Assembly: GCA_027946365.1 (NCBI GenBank)
Contig: JAPEUQ010000008.1
Span: 434,001 to 498,000, forward strand
DNA: 64,000 nucleotides
Source: Kalmusia sp. IMI 367209
Lineage: Eukaryota; Ascomycota; Dothideomycetes; Pleosporales; Didymosphaeriaceae
Reading direction: 5' to 3'
Every line of letters starts with the position of its first letter. Within the stretch, counting starts at the first letter, position 1. Shown here one piece after another: positions 5,275 through 45,417 of this stretch. The notes beneath the pieces are model-generated. The model was not told where the DNA came from. It saw only the letters and a program-made list of their open reading frames with translations, and did no database searches. Made by a program: the position numbers and the translations under genes.

Positions 5275-7729
5275 TTATAAGGCATGCGAAACTTCATTGT
5301 ACAAAAGCTGTAGGTGCTTATGAGTGAGATCTATTACATCAACCTTATTTGCAACCAAATCATCAAAATACATCTGAGATGACCCTGAGCGAACATAAGT
5401 CGCGATGGGCAAGCCTCTTCCCACCTTATTCAACGTCCACATCTTCAATTCCGCCCCCGTGAACAAGAATCGATACAAAGCAAAACCATGAGTCTCCTCC
5501 GCTGAACCTACAGCTGCGACTGTCACCGCCACAGCGGTGTCTTTCCCACGCTCCTGCCACGAACTTTTAAAATCGAGAGTGCTGTACAGGCTTTCCGCAC
5601 TATATCCATCCACTCCGATGTTCCACACCGTAATCAGATCTTGGGCTTCCTCGTATCTATATACTCTCCGCAAAGACTTTCCATTCGTGTTGCCAGACAT
5701 AAAATATTCCCAGTCAAATGACGCCTCAGTCGGATACCGAGGGTGAAGGCTGTGATGCGAAAATACGACGCCAGCCGTTGATTCCCTGCATGCTGCAGTC
5801 CACTCCCCGTGTAATCCGAAGAATACCGCTCGCGCAAGGAACGCGCCGTCTCGCGCCTGATGTCGGACTGACTGTATCGCCATGAGCGTCTTCATCGCCT
5901 CGGTCTTGTCGCTTCCTGGATCTGTATACCGCGCTGAGCAGATGAAGCCTTCCGTCTCGGAGAACCCCAGATCGAAACGCTCGAGGCCAAATTCTCGACT
6001 GGCTTGCTCCATCGCTCCGACTGTGTCGCCGAAGGGATTGTGTGGGATCTCGGCTTTCTTACCTTCCTTCACGGCTCTACGGAGGTCGCGGTAGAACTCG
6101 AGTAGCTTTGCATGTTGTGTGCTTTGAGCAGGCGTTTTAGTGGGGTGGCTGGAAAAGGTCCATTCACGAACAATGGCGCGGGCTTGCATTTCGAGGAGAG
6201 GCCAGTAGGCGCCTGCAAAGCCGAGGACAGCCAGTGTAGGGATGGACGAATTCTGCGAGAGAAAGCTTTTGTCGAGGATGATGGGGACTTGCGGGGTCGT
6301 GGGATCGAATTCAAGGGCTGATTTTGTGCTCTCGGAGAGGAAGGAGAGGGAGGAAGAGACGTCGAAGCCGGTGGCATAGATGACTGCGCATATTTCCTTG
6401 ACAGTGGTGGAAGTAGTGCCATTGTAATTCGTGATATTAGCTGTGAGGAAAGGGGATTTGTTGGATGATTCTAAATTTTGTACAGTTCCGCGGTGCTGAA
6501 AGATTTCCCCGGTTTTCAGGAATTGGGAGTATGTGTCTCCCAGGATACCAATGGGCGCCAAGTTGTCAACTCGACGGGTGTCGAGGGAGCCTTCGTTGCC
6601 GTCAACGATGGTGTGGATCATTTTCCTTGAAGCTGTGATTTTTTCGGGAGTGACTAGTCCTACCGTGAATTCGGGCGGTGGATCTAAATGATGAGCCAAG
6701 TTAGAAAAGTTTGGCTAGGAGAATGACTAGTGTTATGGCACCGAGATCTAATAACAGCGCAAAGATGGAAGTGTAAAGAATGCATAAAATAATATGAGCG
6801 GTGTAATGACAGTGTGTAGAGGAGTATAACATCAAGGGGAAGTTTGAATACGCTGAATTTTCTTCAGCGTTATCAACGTTCTTACCTGCAGGGCGACTTG
6901 ATCGATCGAACAAAGTAAAGTCTGCTGGTTGGAAGGTGCATGAGCTCGCGCTTGGGTCCCGTATAAACGACGGGAGAGCAAACATCTCATGTGAACTGAT
7001 ATGCAAAACACGGACAGGTCTCCATTTTGCTCTCTTAGATTCCGTTGAATCAGGCGAGTACTGGGCATCAGAAATTTGTAGTGCTAGCAAGGCTGCAATG
7101 TCGCCTCCTGAGTGTGAACCACCAACTACTAATACTCTTCTGTCACCAGTGCTAAGTTTATGCCCACTGTCGATGTCGCTCAGCATTCGGTATTGAGTGC
7201 TATGAAGTATTGGTACTGTTGAGTTGGATGACTCATTCAGACGCGGCATCTTGGGAATGCTGAAGAAGCCAGGTGCAGCCACGATGTAATCAAAAGTTAT
7301 CTCTGAGAGCTCCGTCATTCTGTCCCCGAGGTCCCTGCAAAGCTGTATCTTCCAGCGGCGCTGCTCGCCGTCTCCTACGTCTTCTAATTGCTCTACTTCT
7401 TGAACCGTAGTTCTAAACTGTACGATTTCTGGAGGAATGTATCGCTCCCAGTATTGAGTGAGGTACTGATAAACTTGTGACGCTTTGGGATAGATCGGCG
7501 CTGATTGGCCCTGCAGATCTATAGACTCCCAGGAAAGGTCCGAGAAGCTCATCGTGAATTTGCTCTGGTTCGTGCGCATATTTGGGTTGATAATGCCATC
7601 TAGGATCCATGAGCCACCGATCTTGTCTCCTCTTTCGAATATCGTAATGTTGAACTGTTTGGCTTGGAGCAGCTTCCGTGCCGCAATGATGCCTGCGGGG
7701 CCTGTTCCAATAATAGCAATCGTCTTCAT
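5275..7729 (-). CDS. Flavin-containing monooxygenase with C-terminal extension
   Basis: Two exons on the minus strand, 7729..6886 and 6683..5275, encode about 750 residues. The intron (6684..6885, 202 bp) has a GTAAGA donor and TTTAG acceptor, and the join restores Asp in RPAD-PPPEF. Motifs: GTGPAG (FAD Rossmann, residues 8-13), GGSWILDG, GGSHSGGD (NADPH-binding Rossmann, about residues 203-210) and YATGFD (the ATG motif of FMO/BVMO enzymes). The first 480 or so residues are a group B flavin monooxygenase that would use FAD, NADPH and O2 to oxygenate a small molecule. The last 250 or so residues are not part of the usual FMO fold; FFGLHGEW and the later basic YRY/FLFTG segment recall the DUF6314 family (tentative). 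It lies near a UstYa-type gene, and FMOs occur in the ustiloxin cluster, so a tailoring role is possible but unproven. Confidence 0.82.
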
Positions 7730-8502: not shown

Positions 8503-9632
8503 ATGAAGAGTCTCTCCATTGAAACCCTCGAAGTAAGTCTACAACGACATCTTGTGAAGATCTTAACATTAATGTGATAGCAGGCTCTTCTCTGGGGATT
8601 GACCGCTCTAGACACTTTACTGACAGCAGGTCGGCTTCTTATTCACTGGCAAAAGCTCAAGAAGATTCGAATTGATGACATCTTCAATGTCCTTGCGGTA
8701 GCTTTTTTTTGCTAGTCTTTATGGTCACGTGGCAAAGATACGTACCAATCGAGCTGCCTGCAAAATTATACGCCGTTGGGAAGACCAAAACGCCTCCCTC
8801 GACTGATTACGACCCAATAGACGCATTAAAGAATGACTTTGCCAACCTCGTCATATTCTGGTGTGTCATTTATTCAGTCAAAGCCAGTTTTTTGGCGCTT
8901 TACTGGCAGATCTTCGAAATTTCGCGGCGATTTCGAATTGCGTGGAGCATTCTTACAGCTTATATTGTTTTGAGCTTTCTGGTCACTGTTCTATCAGTAT
9001 TCTGGCATTGTGGTAGCCCAGCGACCCTGATAGATCTAGGTGAGATATTTTTCTGCGCTTCGCATAAGATCAACATTAACTAAAAAAGTAGATGCTTGCA
9101 GACGGTGGAAACCCCGCGCCATTACTATCATGTACATTGGAGCAGTTTTGCATATGGTCGGCGATTTACTCAGTAAGCCTAGCAAACTCTATCATCGAAT
9201 GAAAGGCTAACTTGAACATAAGTGATGGCTCTACCGATAATTATGATCCGCAAATTGCAGATGAGAAGAAGAGAGAAGATCGGTCTAGCGTTCATTTTCG
9301 CCCTGGTTCTGATTGACGTATGCTTTGCCATACTGCGAGTGGTTTTTACTATGAAACTCAGCGCCAGGAGAGACTCTGACGAAAACACACTCTTTGCTAG
9401 CCTGGATCCCATAGTCGCCGTTCTTGTATGCACGTTACCGTGCTATCGTAGCCTCATCTCACCTGATCGGAAGACGCCAATCACCCGTACCGCCACTGTT
9501 TCTTTGAACTCGTCAAAGTTTACTAGCATTTTTAAGACTTCTACATTTTCAAAGAAAAGTACGGCTTCTAGTACAGAGATGGACGAATTCAGTACTGAAC
9601 ATCTTCCAATACGCAATGCGACGAGCGTCTGA
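8503..9632 (+). CDS. Fungal rhodopsin-like integral membrane protein (apparent 1-base frameshift)
   Basis: Exons 8503..8532, 8581..9039, 9092..9172 and 9223..9632 are joined by introns of 48, 52 and 50 bp. The product has several hydrophobic helices (LLTAGRLLIHW, VIFWCVIYSVKASFLALYW, AYIVLSFLVTVLSVFW, MYIGAVLHMVGDLLMM, GLAFIFALVLIDVCFAILR), the IDD after helix 1, and DACRRWKP before helix 5. These fit the fungal rhodopsin/SAT4-like family (PF20684), widespread in plant-associated ascomycetes and of unknown biochemical role. In exon 2 the frame is broken at the T8 run 8703..8710: the frame reading IDDIFNVLAVAFF hits TAG, and one extra T would continue cleanly into LLVFMVTWQRY. This is either a sequencing error in a homopolymer or a real frameshift. 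No retinal-binding role can be claimed. Confidence 0.78.
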
Positions 9633-9775: not shown

Positions 9776-10749
9776 TTAAGCATCAGCGTTAGGATCAAAC
9801 GGAGGCTCCACAAAGTCCACCAAAACATGCCCAGGAAAGTCCTTTCTCTGAGGAATCATCGCAGGCTCTACGCGATGAGCTCGAGCGGTCCCCATCAATG
9901 CCCCGTAATCTCTGCAGGTATGCTCAACGTTAAAATTTGGGTGAGGGGCTGTGTGATGCTTAAGCCAGTTATAAGTGATCAATGTTGCATCCGCATCACA
10001 CATTAGTTTTTGACGCAACATATCTGCGCAATGATCTACGTGCTCTCTCCACTCTTCGATTCGGTCACGATAGTAATCGTCATTTTCCAGGTAATATTCT
10101 GGGTATGTTGCGCGCCATAACGATCTCTGAAGCTATGTAAGTGCTACAAATTCTTACTTCCGTGTTGAGTTTATACGTACGACACAATGAATGAGATGAA
10201 CTGCTTCGAAAAGTGCCATGCGGCCTCCTCCGGCTGTCTCAGGAAGCCTCACCGCATGTATTGACGCATTTAGGGTTTGAAATGTCTCCTCGGAGATGCG
10301 CATCACGTTCACTGCTATCCGTGGTCAAATTCAAACCTGGATATCACTCAGGGCAACATACTCGGTAATACCTCATCCCACGCCATATCTACGGTTGGTG
10401 ATGGAGGGCCCTTGAACGGAGATGAGCGGTCAAAGGTTCCATTGAACCGTTGCTTGCTCGTCTTCTGCTGTCCACCTACTACCCCACCTGAACATGTAAG
10501 AAACCAGTAGTGCTAATCATTTCATTCTTACATACTGGAGCATGCACAGAATTGATGTTTCTGTCTGCTTGTAGCAGCGAAAATGGCCAGGGATATCGAC
10601 AACAGAATTAGATGTAAGCCTATCTGAATACTGAATCGAAGGCATTTATCTCCACGTCGCGCCTGACTTTTAAATAGAACAACATTTTCTAACGAAAGAT
10701 GAGTACAAAATCTGTCCGTTTGGCTCTCGTCTTCGTATTCGGGGCGCAT
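9776..10749 (-). CDS. UstYa-family (DUF3328) oxidase-like protein
   Basis: Four exons on the minus strand, 10749..10536, 10487..10362, 10314..10181 and 10132..9776, encode 276 residues; introns are 48, 47 and 48 bp with GTATGT/GTACGT donors. There is a short cytosolic N-terminus, one membrane helix (LHLILLSISLAIFAAT), then a lumenal domain with FNGTFDRSSPFKGPPSP, AWDEV, and both family-defining HxxHC motifs: HLIHC (before intron 3) and HVDHC followed by ADMLRQKLMCDAD. YPEYYL and HTCRDYG are also typical. UstYa/UstYb-type proteins carry out oxidative cyclisation of fungal ribosomal peptides (ustiloxin, phomopsin, cyclochlorotine, victorin clusters). All expected blocks are present, so it looks intact. 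A small secreted repeat protein lies 0.94 kb away and is transcribed divergently, suggesting a precursor/enzyme pair. Confidence 0.88.
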
Positions 10750-11687
10750 CCTGATGCCTTTCAACAGAAGTGGAGTTGACAGCATATGGGTATACAAGCA
10801 TACTGTACGTGATCGATTACTGCGATGAACGATCGCCCCCCATCTATTTTCATGGCCAAGTCCAGATTTTCTTGGCTACATGTTCTTGCGCGTATATGCA
10901 TGCCATGCAAGTGGGTCACATGTACGTCAAGCCGCTTGAATACGAGATACGAGTTTGCAGGGGCAAATGCAACCTTGGAAGACGACAACCTTTTCCATGT
11001 GCATCAATAAATGTGCATCACGGAGCAACACGTACCGTTAAGAATGAAGAAGGTGCCAAGATATCTTACGAGGTTTTACTAGGGCTTGATACCGGGAAAC
11101 CTGGCATCGGGTGACATTGATAGTGTCCCTGACGCCCAGCCACGATACATTTATCAAGTGTGTATGCAGCCTGTGTATAAGTTATTACTCTTTAAGCCAT
11201 AAACTCATCGAATTCGTCTGGTGAAGCCAAGGAGTAGAGCATAGAGCAAGATGCCGACAAGAGTCGTGGTCGAATTGCTCCGGGCATACAAAGCCTGCAT
11301 CTCTACGGAGGAGCCAAAAAAAAGAATGGTACACGTATGCTTTGATCAATACTCAACCCTCTACTTCGCCAAGATCATACTACCTTGTAGCCGTCGAGAT
11401 GGTGTATACAAATGTTCAAGGATTATCATGGCTATATCGATTGGTGTCACTGCACATGCACCCACGATAACTGTTGATGCGTCAGGACAAGGAAGCAGGT
11501 AGCACGAAACTTAACCCCCGCAGTGTTTTCAAGCAGGTTATATATTGAACCACAAACTCAATGCAGATGAAGCAAGCTGCGTTATATTCGCAAGACCTCG
11601 GTCCATTTTCCAACTTTTTCTATCGAAAGCGCGCTTCATCGGTAATTTTAATCTTCTACATATATACACGCCTCCAACCGTCTCACG
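10750..11687. other. Intergenic region between UstYa-like gene and repeat peptide gene, 938 bp
   Basis: Two divergent 5' ends face this region. No open frame here has a signal peptide, repeat or domain that I recognise. It would hold the shared promoter of the proposed peptide locus. Confidence 0.45.
11539..11547 (+). promoter_or_regulatory. TATA-like element upstream of repeat peptide gene
   Basis: TTATATATT lies about 140 bp upstream of the ATG at 11688; a second TATATA at 11661..11666 is too close to the ATG to act as a usual TATA box. Sequence resemblance only. Confidence 0.3.
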
Positions 11688-12023
11688 ATGCACCTCAAAC
11701 TCGGTGTCCTCGCATTTTTGCCTCTTGCAGTCGCGCTACCTATAGCTATCAAAGGTACCAACACATAACACGGCTGAGATATTGAGTACTCACGGGAGGA
11801 GTTAGGGCAAGATGGAGTAGGGCAAGATGGAGCCGGGGCAATAGCAATTGTTCGGTCTTCCTTTGATAAGGTCGATAGTCGATCTGAAAGTGAGGCAAAC
11901 TGTTCTGACGGTGTCTGTGTTTTGCGCTACAATGCAGACGTAGACCAAGAGGCTGGAGTGGATGGACAGAATTGCTCTGGTACTATTTGTGTTTTACGAT
12001 ACAATAGTGATGTGGACAAGTAG
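11688..12023 (+). CDS. Small secreted two-repeat peptide, candidate RiPP precursor
   Basis: Exons 11688..11754 and 11806..12023, joined across a 51-bp intron, encode 94 residues. It has a clear signal peptide (MHLKLGVLAFLPLAVA, cleavage near ALPIA). After a Gly-rich GQDGVGQDGAG segment and a linker come two copies of a 16-residue unit: NCSDGVCVLRYNADVD (nt 11898..11945) and NCSGTICVLRYNSDVD (nt 11970..12017), separated by QEAGVDGQ; the protein ends with Lys. Each unit has two Cys four residues apart, one Tyr and an N-C-S sequon. Twelve of 16 residues are identical, while six of those twelve codons differ silently, so the peptide seems to be under selection. The adjacent UstYa-type gene makes a ribosomal-peptide precursor the leading idea. 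Unlike ustiloxin- or phomopsin-type precursors there is no Lys-Arg site between units. A small secreted effector is the alternative. Confidence 0.72.
11805..11834 (+). repeat. Two 15-bp tandem units at the intron/exon border
   Basis: GGGCAAGATGGAGTA and GGGCAAGATGGAGCC follow each other and encode GQDGV-GQDGA. Each unit is preceded by AG, giving two in-frame splice acceptors 15 bp apart. Confidence 0.75.
11898..12017 (+). repeat. Two diverged copies of the 48-bp peptide unit
   Basis: Copies at 11898..11945 and 11970..12017, separated by 24 bp. They are clearly similar in protein (12/16) but strongly diverged in DNA, so the duplication is old and the protein has been kept. Confidence 0.8.
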
Positions 12024-12631: not shown

Positions 12632-13275
12632 TTACAAAGCTTTGTAATCTAGCCGAACCATTCCGTTATGTTTAGGAACCTGCATGTCTTGGAAGAATTG
12701 GAAGATCATAGAGAGAGTATCCTCCACAGATTTTTGCACCTTCCGTACGACCTGCTTGGTCGCATGCAAGAGTGTAACAATTCCTTCGTAGACTTTTCCC
12801 GCAACTTCTTTGATGTAGTTGAGAACAATTCCAAGTATTCTCTCCATGGAAAAAACCGTTTCTTCAGCACAGTCACGTAGGCGTCTAGTATCTGGTTCTT
12901 TGAAGTTGAGCACCTGAATAATGCGGACCATCGTCTTCTTCAGCCACTGTGTAGTCTCATCGATCCGTTGATTTATCTTTTCCTTTGCGGTCTGGCTTAA
13001 CCTATCAAGTTCCTTTTCCAAATCCTCCACCGCCATCTCAGAATCGCTCATCTTCTGGACATCTTCGTTGTATTCTTGTGCCACTTCATTGGCGTACTTC
13101 GCGTTATCTTCTGCACGAGTCTGAATGATCTGCATAGCCTCGTTGACGTTTTGAGGGCCATCGAGGAAGCGCCGTCCGTCGACTCTATTAATATCGCTAG
13201 CAATGTTATCATCCTAAAATCCACGCAAAAATACATATTTTCTATCCAGTGGGGCAGAGGTACAACGTACCGCAT
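12632..13275 (-). CDS. Coiled-coil protein of unknown function
   Basis: Not recognised. The main exon (13196..12632 in the best model) is Glu/Lys/Arg-rich, with a long helical, coiled-coil-like stretch (EDLEKELDRLSQTAKEKI, then MVRIIQVLN, MERILGIVLNYIKEV and VVRKVQKSVEDTLSMIFQFF). There is no signal peptide or membrane segment. The open frame extends upstream of the first internal Met through DINRVDGRRFLDGPQNVNEA, so an upstream exon is needed. One solution is a 5-nt first exon (13275..13271, ATGCG) with intron 13197..13270, giving 189 residues; the start is therefore uncertain. It lies convergent to the repeat peptide gene and may or may not belong with it. Confidence 0.5.
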
Positions 13276-36300: not shown

Positions 36301-39300
36301 GCGTCCTCGGTCAGTCGAATCCGAAAGCTAGTGTCTTGACCCGTAAAGCCAACTTGAAATTCGCGCAACATTTGCAAGCTCTCAAGGAGATTGGACCTCT
36401 CTTGATTGAACAGGTCGCGTTCCACCATCGGTCGCAATGCCGGATCATGTGGATAGTTGGGTACGTAGAGCGCCAGCCCAGTCAAGCCTAAAAGAGCCCA
36501 TGCTTGGGCGTCCGTCTTGAAGGAATTTGCGTATCGGAAGCATTTTTTTAGAGATTCTAGAGTCTTTCGATAGCTCTCTGTTATTGCGGCCTCGGCGTGG
36601 AATTCCAGTGAATCCTCGCTAATTTGGGATATAACATCAACGGAATGTGACGCATAGACACCACTAAGAGCGTTGAGGTAGAGCCAATCCATGGCGCCCT
36701 GTTGATGATTGGTGATGCGTTCTGAGTCGAGCACAAGCTGCTGCGCAAGGACTTGAATTTCTGCTTCGAATCGGTCGAGCTGGGCAAGTTGAACTTCGTC
36801 CGCACCTTGCAATTTGGCGAGGGTGATTGCATGGAACCCACCGTCGATCACGATCTGTTGGTCAACTTGTTTGTGCAAGCCAATGTGGCGTGCCAATCGG
36901 TCCAGGTTACCCCACGCACCGACCTGCTCCATCGGCTCCTCTGCAAGTTGCGGCAGCTTGGTCGATCTCCTTGCAAGTAAAGAAGACTTGGCCCGTACAA
37001 TAGGCACGGATGCCGATGGAGCAATATAGCGATGATCGAACTTAGGTATATGACTCTGAGCAATATCGAGAAACTGGCATAGGCCTTCGAAAACCTCTTC
37101 GAAGTAGGGAGTAACCGGGACATCATCTTCACCGACGCTGTCTTCGAGTTCGCGGACAGCGACTTCTAGAGTCTATTTCATCGTCAGAAGTGATTTACCA
37201 AAGGAATGACCCATGAACATACCGTAATGAATTCACTGGCTTCAATATCTCGCGTCCTAACCAGTTCCAGCGAACTTGCAAATCTCTCACGGATCTGTAT
37301 CATCTCGTCCAACTTCAATTTGGACTTCCACATCGTCGTATCCAACCTATCCGCAAGAGTCTCTAAAGAAAGTACAGCAGCTAGCTGAGCTTGTGTCTTT
37401 GACGTGTCAGGTTTGAAATAGCGCCATAAGCGCTCCATACCAAGTCCACTTGTGAGTTGAACCTCGTTGCCAAATGTAGTTACTTCTTTCGACAGTTTCT
37501 TCCCTAAATTGATGGCAAGAGGTGTTGTTGCGTTGGCAAGCGAAAAAAGGACATCCGAGAGCATTTTTAGGTACGTCTGAAATGTGGCCCGATCAAAACT
37601 TGAACCCGCTATGAGTTCATAGAAAGCCCAGAACAGCTCTCGCAAGAGCTTTGGTGAAATCTCCTCAACTAAAACTAGGTTCATATCTTGTTCTTCCTGG
37701 TTGACAGCCTCGATGGAAGTCGCTATGCCCTTCCAAATCGAATATAGAAACGCAGGGAGCTTTTGTATCTCTTTTCGTCGTTCGAATCTTGTAGAAGGGA
37801 GGGTTACGAGAGCTTTTTGCATGTTGTAGCATTCAAGTGAGACATCGTATAGCGATGCATACCATGTCGAGAGTGACCTGGATGAAGCGTTGAGATGAAG
37901 CACAAGTTCATTATTGAGTGGATAATACGATTGCAGGGTACTGTCATGGTCGGAGTTGCTGTTGGTCGCAAGCCGGCGTTGTAAAGATCTAGCTTGAGAG
38001 GCTGAAAATTTAGCGAGGAAGTCCAGATGATGATTCAAACCATTCGTGGAGCTACGATAATCAACCTGAGTGCCATTAGCAGCCGCCTGGATGCTGTTAT
38101 GACCAGCTAGAAGTCCTTTCGAAACCTGTATCTGGAAGCTCTCAAGTAATTTGCTGTCCGCCACGGACAAATTGTCGAGCTTTGCTTGGATAAGATCTGG
38201 CTGGTTCTTATCACACAAGTGCCGGAAGCGATACAAGCACGAATCAAGTGGGTATTCGGGCAAGATTCCGCTCACTTCACTCCCATCATGCGTTTGATCT
38301 CCATACAACAAGCAAATCTCCACAGCACGATTCCGCATAGCCCGGGAGAGCTCCCCAAATCTCGGGTCTACGGTCATGAAAATTCTAAAGTTGGGGTGCG
38401 GCTTGACAATCCGGGCTTCTCCATCGGCAGTCGAGTGCTCATTGATGCTAAGATAGCCGTTCGGCTCAAGCAGTGAGTTGAGACGATCGAGTACCGCACT
38501 GCTGCAGAGATTTGCATTGTCAAGGACGAGCCATTTGCCGTGTTCGAGAGATTGGATGAGGATGCCGTCAACCCACTGAAAGCGGGCGCCATCAATTTGT
38601 TGTGGGGCTCGAAGCAAGCGTTCCAATTCCTGTCCAAGCTGCGTTACCCCAGATACACCTCGGTCGTTTTCTGCCAGTGACTTCAATAGTGGCAGAACTT
38701 CTTGTGGTGTGATATGAGAGTCCTTGCAAAGCAGCTCTAGTAATGACACCGCGGCTTGTGGTGGGCTTTTCGTCGACGAAAGGATGCGCCGTACATATTC
38801 CTCGACCTTTGACAAAAATTGATGTAGCTCTCGGGATGGGTCGACCTGCTCATAACCACCAACCAAATCCATGGCATCAATGTCCGCATTCATCGAGAAA
38901 GTGACCAGGCTCGCTCCAGCGAAAGAAGCAAGCTGGTTCAACATTGACGTCTTTCCCGAACCAGGTGCACCTACGAGGATAACAGGCCAATTCTGTCTCA
39001 CACTGACTACGAGTGCTTCCATGGGAGCTAGTTGCATGGTGCGAAGGGTAGAGGTTGGATTGGGTCTTGTGATAATGCTGTCTCTTGAGAGAAGACCTAG
39101 CCCAACCTGTAATGTGGATGTTGAAAGGTTGTGATAAAGGGTTATTCGTGAATCGTGAGAACCATATATCGACTCGAAAAGCTTCGACAGTCGAACGCGA
39201 TCTGTCTCCGAGCGAAAGCGTTGAGCGAAAATTGTGTCGAGAAAGTCTCTAGCTGTTCCAGAAAAATGCTGTGAAGTAAGTAACTGTAACCAACGTAGCG

Positions 39301-42300
39301 TATCTCTCAAATTGAACTCCCACGGCGCGCCAAGATGACCAAAAGCCCTATGGGTAACAACCTGCTCATCAAGCTCGGCGACAAAAGCAATCAGCTTTCT
39401 TACATCATCTTCCGCTATTTCCGGGAAGATCTTGGAACAGATAAGAGACAAGTCTTCAGGTCGAAAGACGTCAGCGTAAACTACTGTAAATCTGTTGACA
39501 AAGGATGCTGGAAGACCTTTTCTGCCACCACCTTGATGATGGGGATTCTGAGCGGCAAAAACGCGAAAGTCCCGATGTTTATGGAACGTCTGGTCGAGCT
39601 CTGAGATATACACCTCACCACGATGATCCAGAACAGCGTTTAGACCTTCGAGTACGGATTGAGACGCAAGGTTCATTTCATCAAGCAGAACCCAGTCACC
39701 ATTTTTCATGGCTTTGAGAAAAGGTGCATCTCGCCAAGCGAAGGTACCGGCTTGCTCACCCTCTACAGGTACATCGGATCCGAAAAGGTCCATAAGATCC
39801 GTCTGCTCAGATAGATTGAGGCGAGTGAGAGGCTTGCCAATTGCTCTTGCCAGGGCGGTAACTAGTGTAGTCTTGCCAACGCCCGGATTGCCCTCGAGAA
39901 GAATGGGCTTCGATAATTGTAGAGCACGTGCCACTCTGGATGCATTTGAACGTGTAGTGGGAGCTTCTAGAGAGAAGCTGACGTCTTCGGCAGTAGTAGG
40001 GGAGAACTTTGAAATTGAAAAGTGACCTAATTGAAGGGCCTCTGCACTAGAGACAACGTCAATGACACCAAAGTATAATGAAGCGACATCAGCACCAAGT
40101 AGTTTGCTCAGGTGGTGCAGACATGCTTTTCTTTCTTCATCAATCGAAACAGCAGGGATGGCAAGTAATCCTGCGGGATTTGCTCCTAGCGTGTCGATAA
40201 AAACCATCGCAGCACCGTGCACTATTCCAAAAATTGGGTCTTCACCGGTGGAGCTGTTGATAAAGGTAACCCATGCAAGTGTATCTCGTATCGATATTGA
40301 TGACGCGGCAGATGTGTTGTACTTCTCGTTGAACCATTGCGCAAATGAGACAAGCGGTTCCGCGTAAGGTATAGCACTAGGGTTCAGCTTCGATCGGACA
40401 ATCTGCATGACGTCCTCCACATCCGATAAGGCTGGGACCCAGATCTCGGTGAAACGATTCCTCAGAGCTGGCGAGAGCTCCTTCTTGCCGTAGTCGCCAC
40501 CCGGATTCATTGTGGCTAAGAACTGAAAGCCCTCGCTAGCGGTGACCAAGGAGTCTACTGGTCCTTTCTCGGCTAACAACAAGGTGCGTGAGGATTCGAG
40601 GACGCTGTTGAGACGTTCGAGAACGGAGTCGTCGGCGAGCGAAATTTCGTCTAGTAAGAAGTATTGGCCTGTTTTCATAGCATGTACGAGGCTTCCGTCT
40701 GCCCACTCGAATAAAGCCGCAGCCTTGATACGATTAGTTTGGATTTCTTGACGATGAGCTAGTGATATGGAGTCCCGTGTAGCTGGCTCAAGTTTGTCGT
40801 AGATTTCGAGCAGCTGCGTTAGCCCTAGTGTGGATATGTCTAGATTTTGAGGAATATTGCTGAAGATTTCTAACAATTGCCGGAGCAAAAGGTCTTCAAC
40901 AGCAGCCCTGTTGCGTATCGGTCTCTGTGCGCCAATTAAATCCCCTGTCTCCGTGTTCTGATGCGCGTTCAGGATGTGCAGCTGCTTTCCAAACGCATCC
41001 GCAAGCATTTGACAGACCGTAGTCTTGCCACAACCTGTCTCTCCTACGAGTAATACAGGTTCGTTATTTCGGATCGCATGAGCGACAAGCACGAAGAGAC
41101 GCCGCATTGCCCGAGTCCAAACAACATTAGCATCTGAATCAGTCTTTTCGTTGTATAGTCTGATCTCCGGTGAAGCCACCTCGCTAAACATGATTTCCTC
41201 GTCCACAGCCACTCGTGGGCCCTTTTTGCTCATAACGGTCTCAATAATGTTCTTAACCGCTAATCGCTCCTCTTCCTTCCGTACTCGTTCAGCTAGAAGC
41301 ATATAACCGTTGTTTGCGAGATCTTGGATCGTATCTGCTTTGCGTTGCGCCCAGCGAAACAAGTCTCGAAGCGTCGCAAAGCTCTTTTGTTCAAAGATTC
41401 GATTTTCCTGTCTTAGGATCGACAGTTCTTGGTAAACGCTGACAATTCTTTTACACCATGACTCTGGTATCATTGTACGGCGATGTAAAATTTCAGTCAA
41501 TTCCTCCACCGGAATGTCATCGAAGTGTAGCTCTAAGAAACGATTGCGGAAGGCTCTGGACAACGCCTTTCGCCCGCCATACAAACCCGCAGGATTTTGG
41601 GTGGCGAAAAGCATGAAATCTTCATGGGGTCTGACTACCTCTTGAGTCTCGGGTATTAACAATTCTCGGTTATCGTCAAGAAGTCGATTGAGGGCTTCTA
41701 GAACGTCCGTAGGTGCTAGATTAAGTTCATCCAGCACTATCCAATGTCCTTCCCGTAGAGCTTGAACTAGAATGCCCTCCTGAAAGGTTAGCTTGCCGTC
41801 AGCGCCTGAGATGTAAGAGCCAAGATATTCTTGCAGATCGGTATGCTCGTGGTTGTTGATGCGAACAAATTTGTTGCCTGAACGCTTTGCGAGATACTCG
41901 ATCATACTAGTCTTTCCCGATGATGTAGGACCTTGAATGAGGACGGGGTAACGGCGCGTTGAAGAAGCCCGGATTAAGTTGTTCATATTGCGCTGAACGA
42001 AGGGCGTGATTATGTAATGAGGCTGCTCTTCGACTGGCTGTGCACCTTGATGAAGCCAGTAATGGCCTTGTCGTACGTAAGCCCTCCCATCACTAGGTTG
42101 AATGAGGGGTTTTCCTAGCTCTGCTTTCATGACCGATTTTTGCGCGAACAGGTGTTCTTTGATTAGCGGTGCAACGAGGTCTTCCGAAGCCTTGCCTAGA
42201 AACGTAAGGAAGCTCATATGAAAACCTTCGAATAGTGCGCGTCGCAACGAGCATAATGGCGCAATCTCTCGTGCATATGAAAGCGTTCGGGTTAGTGTTC

Positions 42301-45085
42301 TGAGACTGAAGTGCGCTTTTTGATCTGCGCCATCTACTAGCATGTTGGCTCTAGCAAACTCTTGGATCTTCAAGTAAAGCTTCGTAACATCAGAAGCTAC
42401 TCTGATAATAGTAGGGTCAATGTTGTCGCCTCCTAAGTATTTCTCAACGATATTTTGCAAACTCTTTTTATCGCTATCAGGGCTTTCAACATACAGCTCG
42501 GTGAATCGAGATCTAATGCCCGGCGGTAGGTCCTTTTTGCCGACATCAGTTGCGGGATTCATGGCTGCAAAGATTCTGAAATTAGGATGAGCTACCACTC
42601 GTTCAACATTGCCAGTTTCTGTTAGTAAAATGGATGGTGCCCCATCTGGTCCTCCACCTAGGAGGTCTGCGAGCGCCTCAAGCGTGTCTGAGGATGCCAA
42701 ATTGATTTCATCAAGTAAGACCCAATCGCCATTTCTGACGGCCTTGACAATATTGCCTTCGAGGAAGGAGAACGCAAACGCCTCCGAGCCATTCGCAAGC
42801 TGTGCCTCGAGGTCATGCAAGTCTGTGGCAAATTTGTCCCATCGTGACCCGAGGAATGTAGCCGGCAATGTATCCACCTTGCGCTTCTTCTTGGGCTGGC
42901 CCCCGTCAGGGTCTGGTGAGGAAGTCTGCGACTCGTGTGCTTTACGTGCCGCATCCACCATTTTGAGCGCCTCTCGCCAGAGCATGCAGACACGCTTCCA
43001 TTCGCCTTTCGCAACTCGCTTGCCAAGCATCTCGATGAAGCGTTGATTCTTCTTCCGCGAGAAAGTCGTGTCAAATAGTACATCAAATTCATCTTTTAGT
43101 GGGATAATAAGGCTGCGGACATTGACAGGCTTATATCCTCCAAGCAGATCCCCACTTTCGCTCTGCTGTGATAAGTTGAACGCAACCAGTTTTCTTCCGA
43201 GGTGCTCAGCCAGATACTGAATGCAGGTTGTTTTTCCAGTACCCGTTTCGCCAACGAGAAGCAATGGTTCTTGGCGGTCTACGGCTACTGCGATCTTCTC
43301 TAGTAGACGTAGAGTATACCCGTTGGTAGAGAATGGCCTACTAGGTGCGCTGCGTTTCGAAATTTTGTATCTTGACAGTTTCGTCCGGCCAATCCGTATG
43401 ACACCCGAAGACGTGCTCTTGGCTGGGGCCTCCAGCTTGACTTCTCTATTTTGGAGGAGATGATCCCGCCGCTGCGGATCAATGTGAAGCTCTTCGGCCA
43501 CACAAGTCATCACTCTGATCCGGGCTTGTTCGCTTCGCAAGCTCCCTGCAAAACAATCGAAAGCTTCCATGAAGATATCATCCATTTGCGATACATTGAA
43601 AGTGGAAGACTGTGCTAGTAGCACTACCATACGATCGCACCATTTCAGTAAGTCTCGGGGCGTGAGTGCTCGAAGAGATGTGCCATTTTCCGAAGAAAAT
43701 TTCACATCGGAGTACAGCTCAATCAGACGGGCGTAGACTCGCATAATGCCAGCGGTGTGCTTGCCAAGTGTAGGATATTTGTCGGACACAATCTTTTCGA
43801 ACTCTCCAAGATCAGGCATGTGAACAGAAATGGACTTCCAAAAGCGGTGCCCGATCATGTTCTGGCGTGGAACAATCTCTTGTCCTCGTGGATTCAGCGT
43901 GCTTCGCATAGTGGCAATAATTCGGAACCCCCTCGCAGCTTGGACGGTTTCTCCTCTGCTCGGAATTAGCAGCTCACCTCGCTCAATGAGTGGCAGAAGA
44001 GTGCTAATGACCTCATTCGGAGCTCGGTCAAGGTCCTCAATGAATATCCACCGGCCTTCTTTTACGGCGGTCGTAAGAACACCAGGCCGCCAGCTAAAAG
44101 TTCCAGGCTTAGCACCGGTTGCGTACATGCCCACCAGAAGCTTAGCATCACTTTGCTCATTTAGATGAAGGGTGACCATGGTGTCCAGTTTGTTCAGCTG
44201 CCACCCCAAATGACGCGTAAGGAGCGTCTTGCCGGATCCCGCCAAACCCGTGAGTAGAAGAGGGCTTGGTCCAAGTAGGGCACGGGCGATACTCCGTAGG
44301 TTACATTCCGTGGTAGGTGTAGAGATGAGTTCTACGGGCTTTTCTTGTGATGAAGCTCCGTTGAGCCGTGGTAGGAGCACTCCACTCACATTGACCGTGT
44401 ATGGGGAAAGCTGCCGGTAAAGGATTGGTGAGGCGTATTGCGCCTCTTCTAATCGGCGCTGCTGTAGTCTTATTTGAAGTTCCTTCCACCTCCTTTCTTC
44501 CCACAGAGACAGGAATCGGTAGTCGATCGCCTGACCTTCCCACTCACCTTCAACCTCACCCTCTCCGACCACACTTTTGACCATCTCTTGCGTCGCATGA
44601 TCTGCTGCATGCACAAAGAGACAAAAATTGCGAAGTGCTAGATATCGCACACACCGGCTCGGATGTTGGAAAAGCCGTTCAATCGCAGATAGTCGCATAT
44701 GTTTGGCGAAACTTCGGCAATCAAAACTCATGAGACGGAAGGTCCCCAGAAGTGCCTGGCATAGCTCGGGCTCAGTCACGGTGGTGATATCTCGTCGGTT
44801 AGAAATGCCGGCTTGGTGTGCTCCAAGGTATGACACCTGTGTCGATGCCGCAAGTCGCTCAGCATGCTCAGCAAGATGAGGTGCAAGTGGTAGTAGGCGT
44901 CCGAAAGCCGCAATTTCCAGCTCGGGTGCGGCTTTCTCCAAGCTCATCCATCTCGTACAAACTTCTACAAAGAGATGTTCGTATTTGATGAAAAGGTCGT
45001 CCGTACGGCCTGGTTTCAAGGACTCCTTGGCAAGCCTCTCGAATGAGACCATTTCACCGGCCTGCCTGGTGGCGTTGCCGTCCAT
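30388..45085 (-). CDS. MDN1: Midasin, AAA+ ribosome-assembly ATPase
   Basis: The largest gene here, about 4,880 residues, close to yeast Mdn1/Rea1 (4,910). Exon 1 45085..37223, a 50-bp intron, then exon 2 from 37172. Six AAA+ P-loops appear in order: GLAGSGKT, GETGTGKT, GPTSSGKT, GETGCGKT, GNPGVGKT and GAPGSGKT, each with Walker B-type VLLDE/ VLDE motifs. A long linker follows, then a very acidic Asp/Glu-rich region (about nt 31,300-32,960) and a C-terminal VWA/MIDAS domain with DDSKSMAES. Midasin strips assembly factors (Ytm1, Rsa4) from pre-60S particles in the nucleolus and nucleoplasm. Between GIVKAGFFEEGAF...TALELC and ERIRMERPPQPIQNLAI (near 34,415-34,450) the frame shifts by one base; I find no good intron there, so a missing base is likely, given that the gene is essential in yeast. 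Confidence 0.95.
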
Positions 45086-45417
45086 CTTTGTGGAAGCTGC
45101 GTGGTGTAGTATTGAATGCGCCTTCCCATATAGGTCCCCGTCATTGGTATCGTGCAGGGTTTTACCTTAAGACACACTGTACAAAAGCAAACCGTACAAA
45201 TGACACTGTACTTCTGGAGAATTTCGGCCCAGGATCGCAGGGTTCCGCGTTGTTGTAGAAAGTTGCCGCAGTCCACCAAAAAAGTTCTAAAGGTGAACTT
45301 TCTTGCCAAGGCGCTAGTCCCCATTCGCGACTTCCGCTCCGCAAAATCTCATGTAGGACCTCGAGCTCACGCATTGCATCCAACAACACAAACGCACCTG
45401 CCGTCTTCAACGTCACC
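45086..45417. promoter_or_regulatory. Divergent promoter of MDN1 and the bL12m gene, 332 bp
   Basis: Start codons of midasin (minus) and the mitochondrial ribosomal protein (plus) face away from this short region, so both promoters and 5' leaders lie in 332 bp. I see no clear core element. Confidence 0.5.

Follow-up and report, generated by a model that had tools for sequence, protein, structure and literature searches.

The window analysed here, a 64-kb stretch of the Kalmusia sp. IMI 367209 genome, carries a gene for a UstYa-family oxidase divergent from a gene for a small secreted peptide and accompanied by a GPCR-like gene, and a related set of genes lies on a second contig (C25). The features, in window positions, are as follows.

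6701-7729, minus strand: flavin monooxygenase-like gene (PF00743, by Pfam)
8503..9632, plus strand: Fung_rhodopsin (PF20684) GPCR-like gene of several exons, on the far side of the UstYa gene, boundaries approximate (by Pfam)
9776..10749, minus strand: UstYa-family oxidase gene, 275 aa, four exons (10749-10536, 10487-10362, 10311-10181, 10132-9776)
10750..11687, no strand: divergent intergenic region of 938 bp, start codon to start codon (946 bp in the C25 counterpart)
11688..12023, plus strand: secreted two-repeat peptide gene, candidate UstYa substrate, 94 aa, exons 11688-11754 and 11806-12023
11755..11805, plus strand: intron of 51 nt after codon 22, phase 1, directly 3' of the signal peptide, with the same position and phase in the C25 precursor
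11806..11897, plus strand: linker from the signal exon to unit 1, with single R/K only (from the translation)
11898..11945, plus strand: repeat unit 1, NCSDGVCVLRYNADVD, residues 54-69
11970..12017, plus strand: repeat unit 2, NCSGTICVLRYNSDVD, residues 78-93
12632-13213, minus strand: open frame of 193 aa without a Pfam match, the first long frame after the peptide gene on its downstream side
37184-45166, minus strand: Midasin-type AAA+ protein with Midasin lid domains (by Pfam)

Splice modelling of the UstYa gene gives three introns of 48, 50 and 48 nt, all GT..AG, and a spliced protein that contains two HxxHC motifs (HLIHC and HVDHC), matches PF11807 (UstYa / DUF3328) with E = 1.3e-41 and 143.3 bits against a cut-off of 25, and has by eye one hydrophobic stretch in its N-terminus, encoded by exon 1, which together provide the membrane stretch plus two HxxHC motifs that mark the family. 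This bears out the original prediction of a full-length UstYa-like protein with both motifs. Its best match in the protein database reached 56%, and its relatives there (P0001-P0004) include proteins of Lophiotrema nucula, Zopfia rhizophila, Lindgomyces ingoldianus and Lojkania enalia. Neither the window UstYa nor the window peptide was itself retrieved when each was searched, so both genes seem to be missing from public annotation or to be modelled differently there.

The peptide gene encodes a protein with a signal-like N-terminus of typical sequence (by eye) followed by two units that are identical at 12 of 16 residues, each with a Cys-X4-Cys pair and a retained Tyr. The gene model thus agrees with the 94-residue protein predicted earlier, which had been described as carrying two 16-residue Cys/Tyr units at a distance of 0.94 kb. 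The intron donor (GTACCA) is weak and ten splice models are possible; the in-frame acceptors and the four of these ten models that were listed alter only residues that lie between the signal peptide and the units. At the nucleotide level the two units differ at 15 positions, nine of them third codon positions, and six of the ten changed codons are silent, leaving 4 amino-acid changes against 8.7 expected neutrally (P = 0.00085, 20,000 draws). So few amino-acid changes, combined with the third-position bias, imply that the repeats are coding and constrained beyond chance; judging by this pattern, the units are translated and constrained. The protein contains no KR, RR, KK or RK pair anywhere, and its NCS triplets are also N-glycosylation sequons. 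A search of about 5.8 billion proteins for homologues returned 12 candidates, none at E ≤ 1, and a search of its own genome for a second copy matched only the gene's own two exons.

Pfam scanning of 26 of the 82 listed window ORFs recognised the flavin monooxygenase-like gene as the only possible further cluster enzyme, with no match to a tyrosinase, methyltransferase or peptidase, and an Rfam scan of the window returned nothing at the gathering threshold. The Midasin-type gene we take to be a housekeeping gene, which would place conserved genes less than 30 kb from the peptide/UstYa pair.

We also surveyed UstYa loci across the searched genome, which comprises 30 contigs and 42,784,582 bases (in line with an endophyte paper whose authors name the fungus cf. 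Kalmusia sp., in Didymosphaeriaceae, and the consulted part of which gives 30 contigs, 42.78 Mb, an N50 of 2,200,773 and 13,561 genes; PMC10027605). It holds 102 UstYa matches, merged to about 70 genes and 55 loci; these loci were built from 73 of the 102 matches, with the remaining 29 taken as extra exons of the same genes, and include one (C25:915147) whose match falls below the Pfam cut-off. Under a fixed rule, which asks for an ungapped repeat scoring at least 50 and for dibasic pairs at matching places in its two copies, a dibasic repeat ORF was found at 15 of the 45 UstYa loci read, a count taken at UstYa loci only. This number is a lower bound, as 25 of the 45 loci were read with about 1.5 kb per side, and it is a count per locus, since some matches are antisense shadows of one ORF. 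The loci concerned (L003, L009, L014, L017, L031-L034, L036, L040-L042, L045, L046 and L051) have very different cores, and many of these at least 15 loci look like undescribed dikaritin-type clusters. Locus L018 has a repeat precursor by eye, yet fails the fixed rule. At L034 (about 7232, minus strand), the precursor has copies ending in TKR alongside copies ending in TR alone, which hints that a single precursor may be cut at both mono- and dibasic sites. A published survey reports, in the part consulted, 5.25 KEPs per Ascomycota strain and DUF3328 genes accompanying 22% of KEP genes (PMC7329392); by these averages strain IMI 367209 looks rich in UstYa-repeat loci, the survey rule being different from the fixed rule used here. 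In the 64-kb window no ORF passes the fixed rule, which demands dibasic pairs and is therefore blind to precursors of the window kind.

The closest relatives of the window UstYa and GPCR genes within the genome lie together on contig C25. Among the matches listed in a one-way search, the best non-self match of the window UstYa protein was C25:1032946-1033635 (50%, E = 4.6e-56; next, E = 2.1e-15), and that of the window GPCR, also in a one-way search, was C25:1034776-1035084 (46%, E = 8.8e-23; next, E = 2.7e-18). The C25 UstYa gene (from C25:1032698) has this Fung_rhodopsin gene, at C25:1034776, just downstream and, divergent from it, a secreted repeat precursor of five units with KR sites between them. 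Our splice model of this precursor (148 aa) matches the annotated protein N0V90_004393 of Kalmusia sp. IMI 367209 at 100% over its full length, and in the protein-database search it matched itself only. The two cassettes have in common their gene set, the divergent precursor/UstYa layout, a start-to-start gap of about 940 bp (938 bp in the window, 946 bp on C25) and a signal exon followed by an intron. They differ in that the C25 precursor has five KR-separated units without Cys, and in that the C25 GPCR gene is co-directional with UstYa whereas the window GPCR and UstYa genes are convergent. The window GPCR-like gene, whose best relative sits beside the C25 UstYa paralogue, was absent from the original prediction. 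The flavin monooxygenase-like gene at 6701-7729 had no counterpart by eye in a 5-kb stretch starting at the C25 GPCR and was dropped as a cluster member.

We modelled introns in 16 precursor genes and compared the best models, in which the intron falls after codon 22 in phase 1 in the window and C25 precursors alike. Phase-1 introns at codons 20-24 were found in the L003, L031, L036 and L041 precursors, and phase-0 introns at codons 20-24 in those of L009, L017 and L018; the L014, L032, L042 and L046 precursors needed no intron before the repeats, and those of L033, L040 and L045 yielded no model. Local alignment of window exon 2 with the 16 precursors ranked C25, which had been singled out beforehand by its UstYa, first (score 35; shuffle P = 0.007 and 0.013, nominal over 16 comparisons), followed by L036 (score 31; P = 0.025 and 0.03, nominal). 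Aligned singly with the C25 precursor, unit 2 gave P = 0.0016 and unit 1 P = 0.003 (both nominal); unit 1 aligns slightly better, however, with the L014 precursor than with C25 (30 vs. 28), a point against C25 kinship. Window and C25 units have a like core, [VL]-x-Y-x-x-D, with Tyr in five of five C25 units (V-x-Y-x-x-D) and R-Y in two of the five; taken alone, this core similarity is modest. The linkers compare as D-P-Q-K-R-E on C25 and D-V-D-Q-E in the window, the latter reading as if a dibasic pair had dropped out of a C25-type sequence. Promoter words shared by the two intergenic regions were set aside, there being two shared 10-mers against 1.96 in shuffles and none of 11 or more.

Common descent best explains the core similarity once the layout, the gap, the intron and the two other related genes are considered with it, and the window probably carries a diverged precursor-UstYa-GPCR cassette that shares descent with the one on C25. 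In a UstYa tree of 46 of 61 homologues (those below 190 aa dropped) plus the window and C25 proteins, both copies fall within one 18-row clade (99/96) but in separate sub-clades, the window copy with Lophiotrema P0001 and Periconia P0022 (98/98; P0022 is a long branch) and the C25 copy with Bimuria P0016 (97/85), and the split between them consequently looks old.

The GPCR-like genes of both cassettes belong to Fung_rhodopsin, a family distinct from that of the pheromone receptor Ste2. Across the genome, and on partial lists, 10 of the 55 UstYa loci have a Fung_rhodopsin gene no more than 5 kb away, against 2.0 expected, an enrichment of about five-fold; the excess is weak within 3 kb (3 vs. 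1.2 expected) and reaches 14 vs. 3.7 within 10 kb. No enrichment was seen for p450 genes (1 of 55 loci, 1.3 expected) or HET genes (3 of 55, 2.05 expected). At 5 kb the Poisson P is 3.9e-5 under uniform placement, a simple model; the maximum of 2000 simulated placements was also 10, so a probability of about 1 in 2000, or below, is the safer reading. These figures use 144 of 162 rhodopsin matches (the others were second fragments or went unlisted; scoring covered 150 of 353 candidates), 92 of 104 p450 matches (leaving out second fragments; scoring covered 92 of 319 candidates) and 150 of 150 HET matches (150 of 370 candidates scored), and both the window GPCR and the C25 GPCR fall outside the rhodopsin position list. 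MFS_1 was set aside as a control family, with 9 of 750 candidates scored. Examples of rhodopsin-UstYa sites lie near C27:590638, C25:348176, C1:2997665 and C10:282609. In the literature, judged mostly from titles and the starts of abstracts, we found no description of an association of UstYa with a GPCR or rhodopsin; one fungal RiPP candidate cluster lists a PTH11-type GPCR (PMC7099791, in the part consulted). A tentative and rather doubtful extension of these observations is that peptide, UstYa and GPCR form an inherited module, a cross-linked signalling peptide with its candidate receptor, whose window version would be Kex2-independent, cysteine-bridged and invisible to KEP mining.

Collectively, these results make it likely that an undescribed fungal ribosomal peptide derives from the 94-residue protein as its precursor and has the UstYa protein as its cross-linking oxidase. 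We class the locus as a variant of the dikaritin kind that has no Kex2 sites and bears cysteines in its units. Of the precursor/enzyme pair originally proposed, the pairing is probably right, since the closest UstYa paralogue adjoins a Kex2-type precursor in the same layout, with the same intron position and a similar core; the usual dikaritin route, in which cores are cut out of the precursor, finds no support in a protein that lacks any dibasic pair. We propose that the precursor would enter the ER and that the membrane-anchored UstYa protein would oxidise the conserved Leu-Arg-Tyr segment that each unit contains and bond the ring of its Tyr to a side chain nearby. This target is suggested by analogy with C25, where every one of the five units has a Tyr. 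A second ring could form in each unit through its Cys-X4-Cys pair, either by a disulfide or by a thioether between Cys and Tyr. As the protein has no Kex2-type site, release would be Kex2-free: a different protease, monobasic or of another kind, may free the units, or the two may stay joined in a single secreted peptide with two rings. The product, or some cue related to it, may be what the neighbouring GPCR-like protein senses.

Several observations pull in other directions. With only two units and no Kex2 dibasic site, the peptide lies outside the published KEP definition, and UstYa enzymes also act outside RiPP pathways according to the consulted part of PMC12048977; both points count against a RiPP reading. 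The peptide might instead be an effector- or pheromone-like secreted protein, small and disulfide-bonded, that needs no modification by UstYa: it would descend from a Kex2 precursor but have left the RiPP pathway, with the UstYa enzyme acting elsewhere or left over. The missing dibasic site, the Cys pair in both units and the NCS triplets would all suit such a protein, as would the existence of two-cysteine alpha-pheromone KEPs in Dothideomycetes (PMC6339444, in the part consulted). We nevertheless think it unlikely, given that the UstYa frame is open when spliced and retains both HxxHC motifs, that the C25 cassette shows the same divergent layout and intron position with nearly the same gap, and that Tyr is kept in both units.

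Decay of a C25-type precursor into a pseudogene would account for the two remaining units, the lost cutting sites and the weak GTACCA donor, but the frame is open, and the excess of silent codon changes (six of ten) with 4 amino-acid changes against 8.7 under neutrality (P = 0.00085) is hard to reconcile with it. Moreover, the two units agree in having the Cys pair and no KR, a state that therefore probably predates their divergence, and we regard decay as quite improbable. A genome with 102 UstYa matches in about 70 genes and 55 loci also offers many places where an unrelated small secreted protein could come to lie beside a UstYa gene by chance. The three-gene neighbourhood recurs, however, at C25, where the best relatives of the window UstYa and GPCR genes lie (by one-way search), and the small gene has the same modelled intron position at both sites, so that mere chance neighbourhood is very improbable indeed.

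For the favoured reading of a precursor paired with its oxidase, the locus indicates that a UstYa-linked precursor can be free of Kex2 sites and Cys-paired in each unit, yet be maintained. Mining for KEPs by Kex2 sites and at least three repeats, as the consulted part of PMC7329392 describes it, may then miss a class of precursors. Of the UstYa-linked precursors of an earlier Aspergillus study, PMC6339444 remarks, in the part consulted, that almost all have Kex2 sites, so Kex2-less cases may have been published before. With one cassette on each of two contigs, a Kex2-type and a Kex2-less form offer a natural comparison, and the GPCR-like gene common to both makes the idea of a self-sensed cyclic peptide testable in an endophyte rich in UstYa-repeat loci.

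Among known systems, the two-cysteine fungal alpha-pheromones resemble the window peptide in having a short repeated two-Cys unit in a secreted precursor, and they are perceived by a GPCR (PMC6339444, in part). Their sequence is unlike that of the window peptide by eye, however, and they are processed by Kex2 and Ste13, as a rule with no UstYa gene nearby, whereas the window peptide has no Kex2 site and an adjacent UstYa gene; pheromone KEPs do not lie beside UstYa genes, with three exceptions, in the consulted part of PMC7329392. KEPs in general have a signal peptide, to which the N-terminus of the window peptide looks similar by eye, and share with it tandem repeats (PMC7329392 and PMC6339444, each in part), but they are defined by at least three repeats between KR, KK, RK or RR (PMC7329392, in part), in our application at least three tandem repeats of at least 8 aa, and the window peptide has two units with none of these pairs between them. 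The closest likeness is to the dikaritins (ustiloxin, phomopsin, asperipin-2a, victorin and epichloecyclin), whose ER-targeted repeat precursors are, according to the consulted parts of PMC9233826 and PMC10512285, cross-linked via aromatic side chains by UstYa-type oxidases. Dikaritins are described as Kex2-processed and as accompanied by peptidases, a tyrosinase or a methyltransferase, none of which was recognised among the window ORFs scanned, and a dikaritin precursor is a KEP with Kex2 sites, which the window peptide lacks. Like them, however, the window has a gene for a putative ER-targeted repeat precursor beside a UstYa-family oxidase gene (938 bp away, divergent and with a paralogous cassette), and its units carry Tyr, in keeping with a dikaritin cross-link that involves Tyr or another aromatic residue (PMC9233826 and PMC10512285, in the parts consulted).
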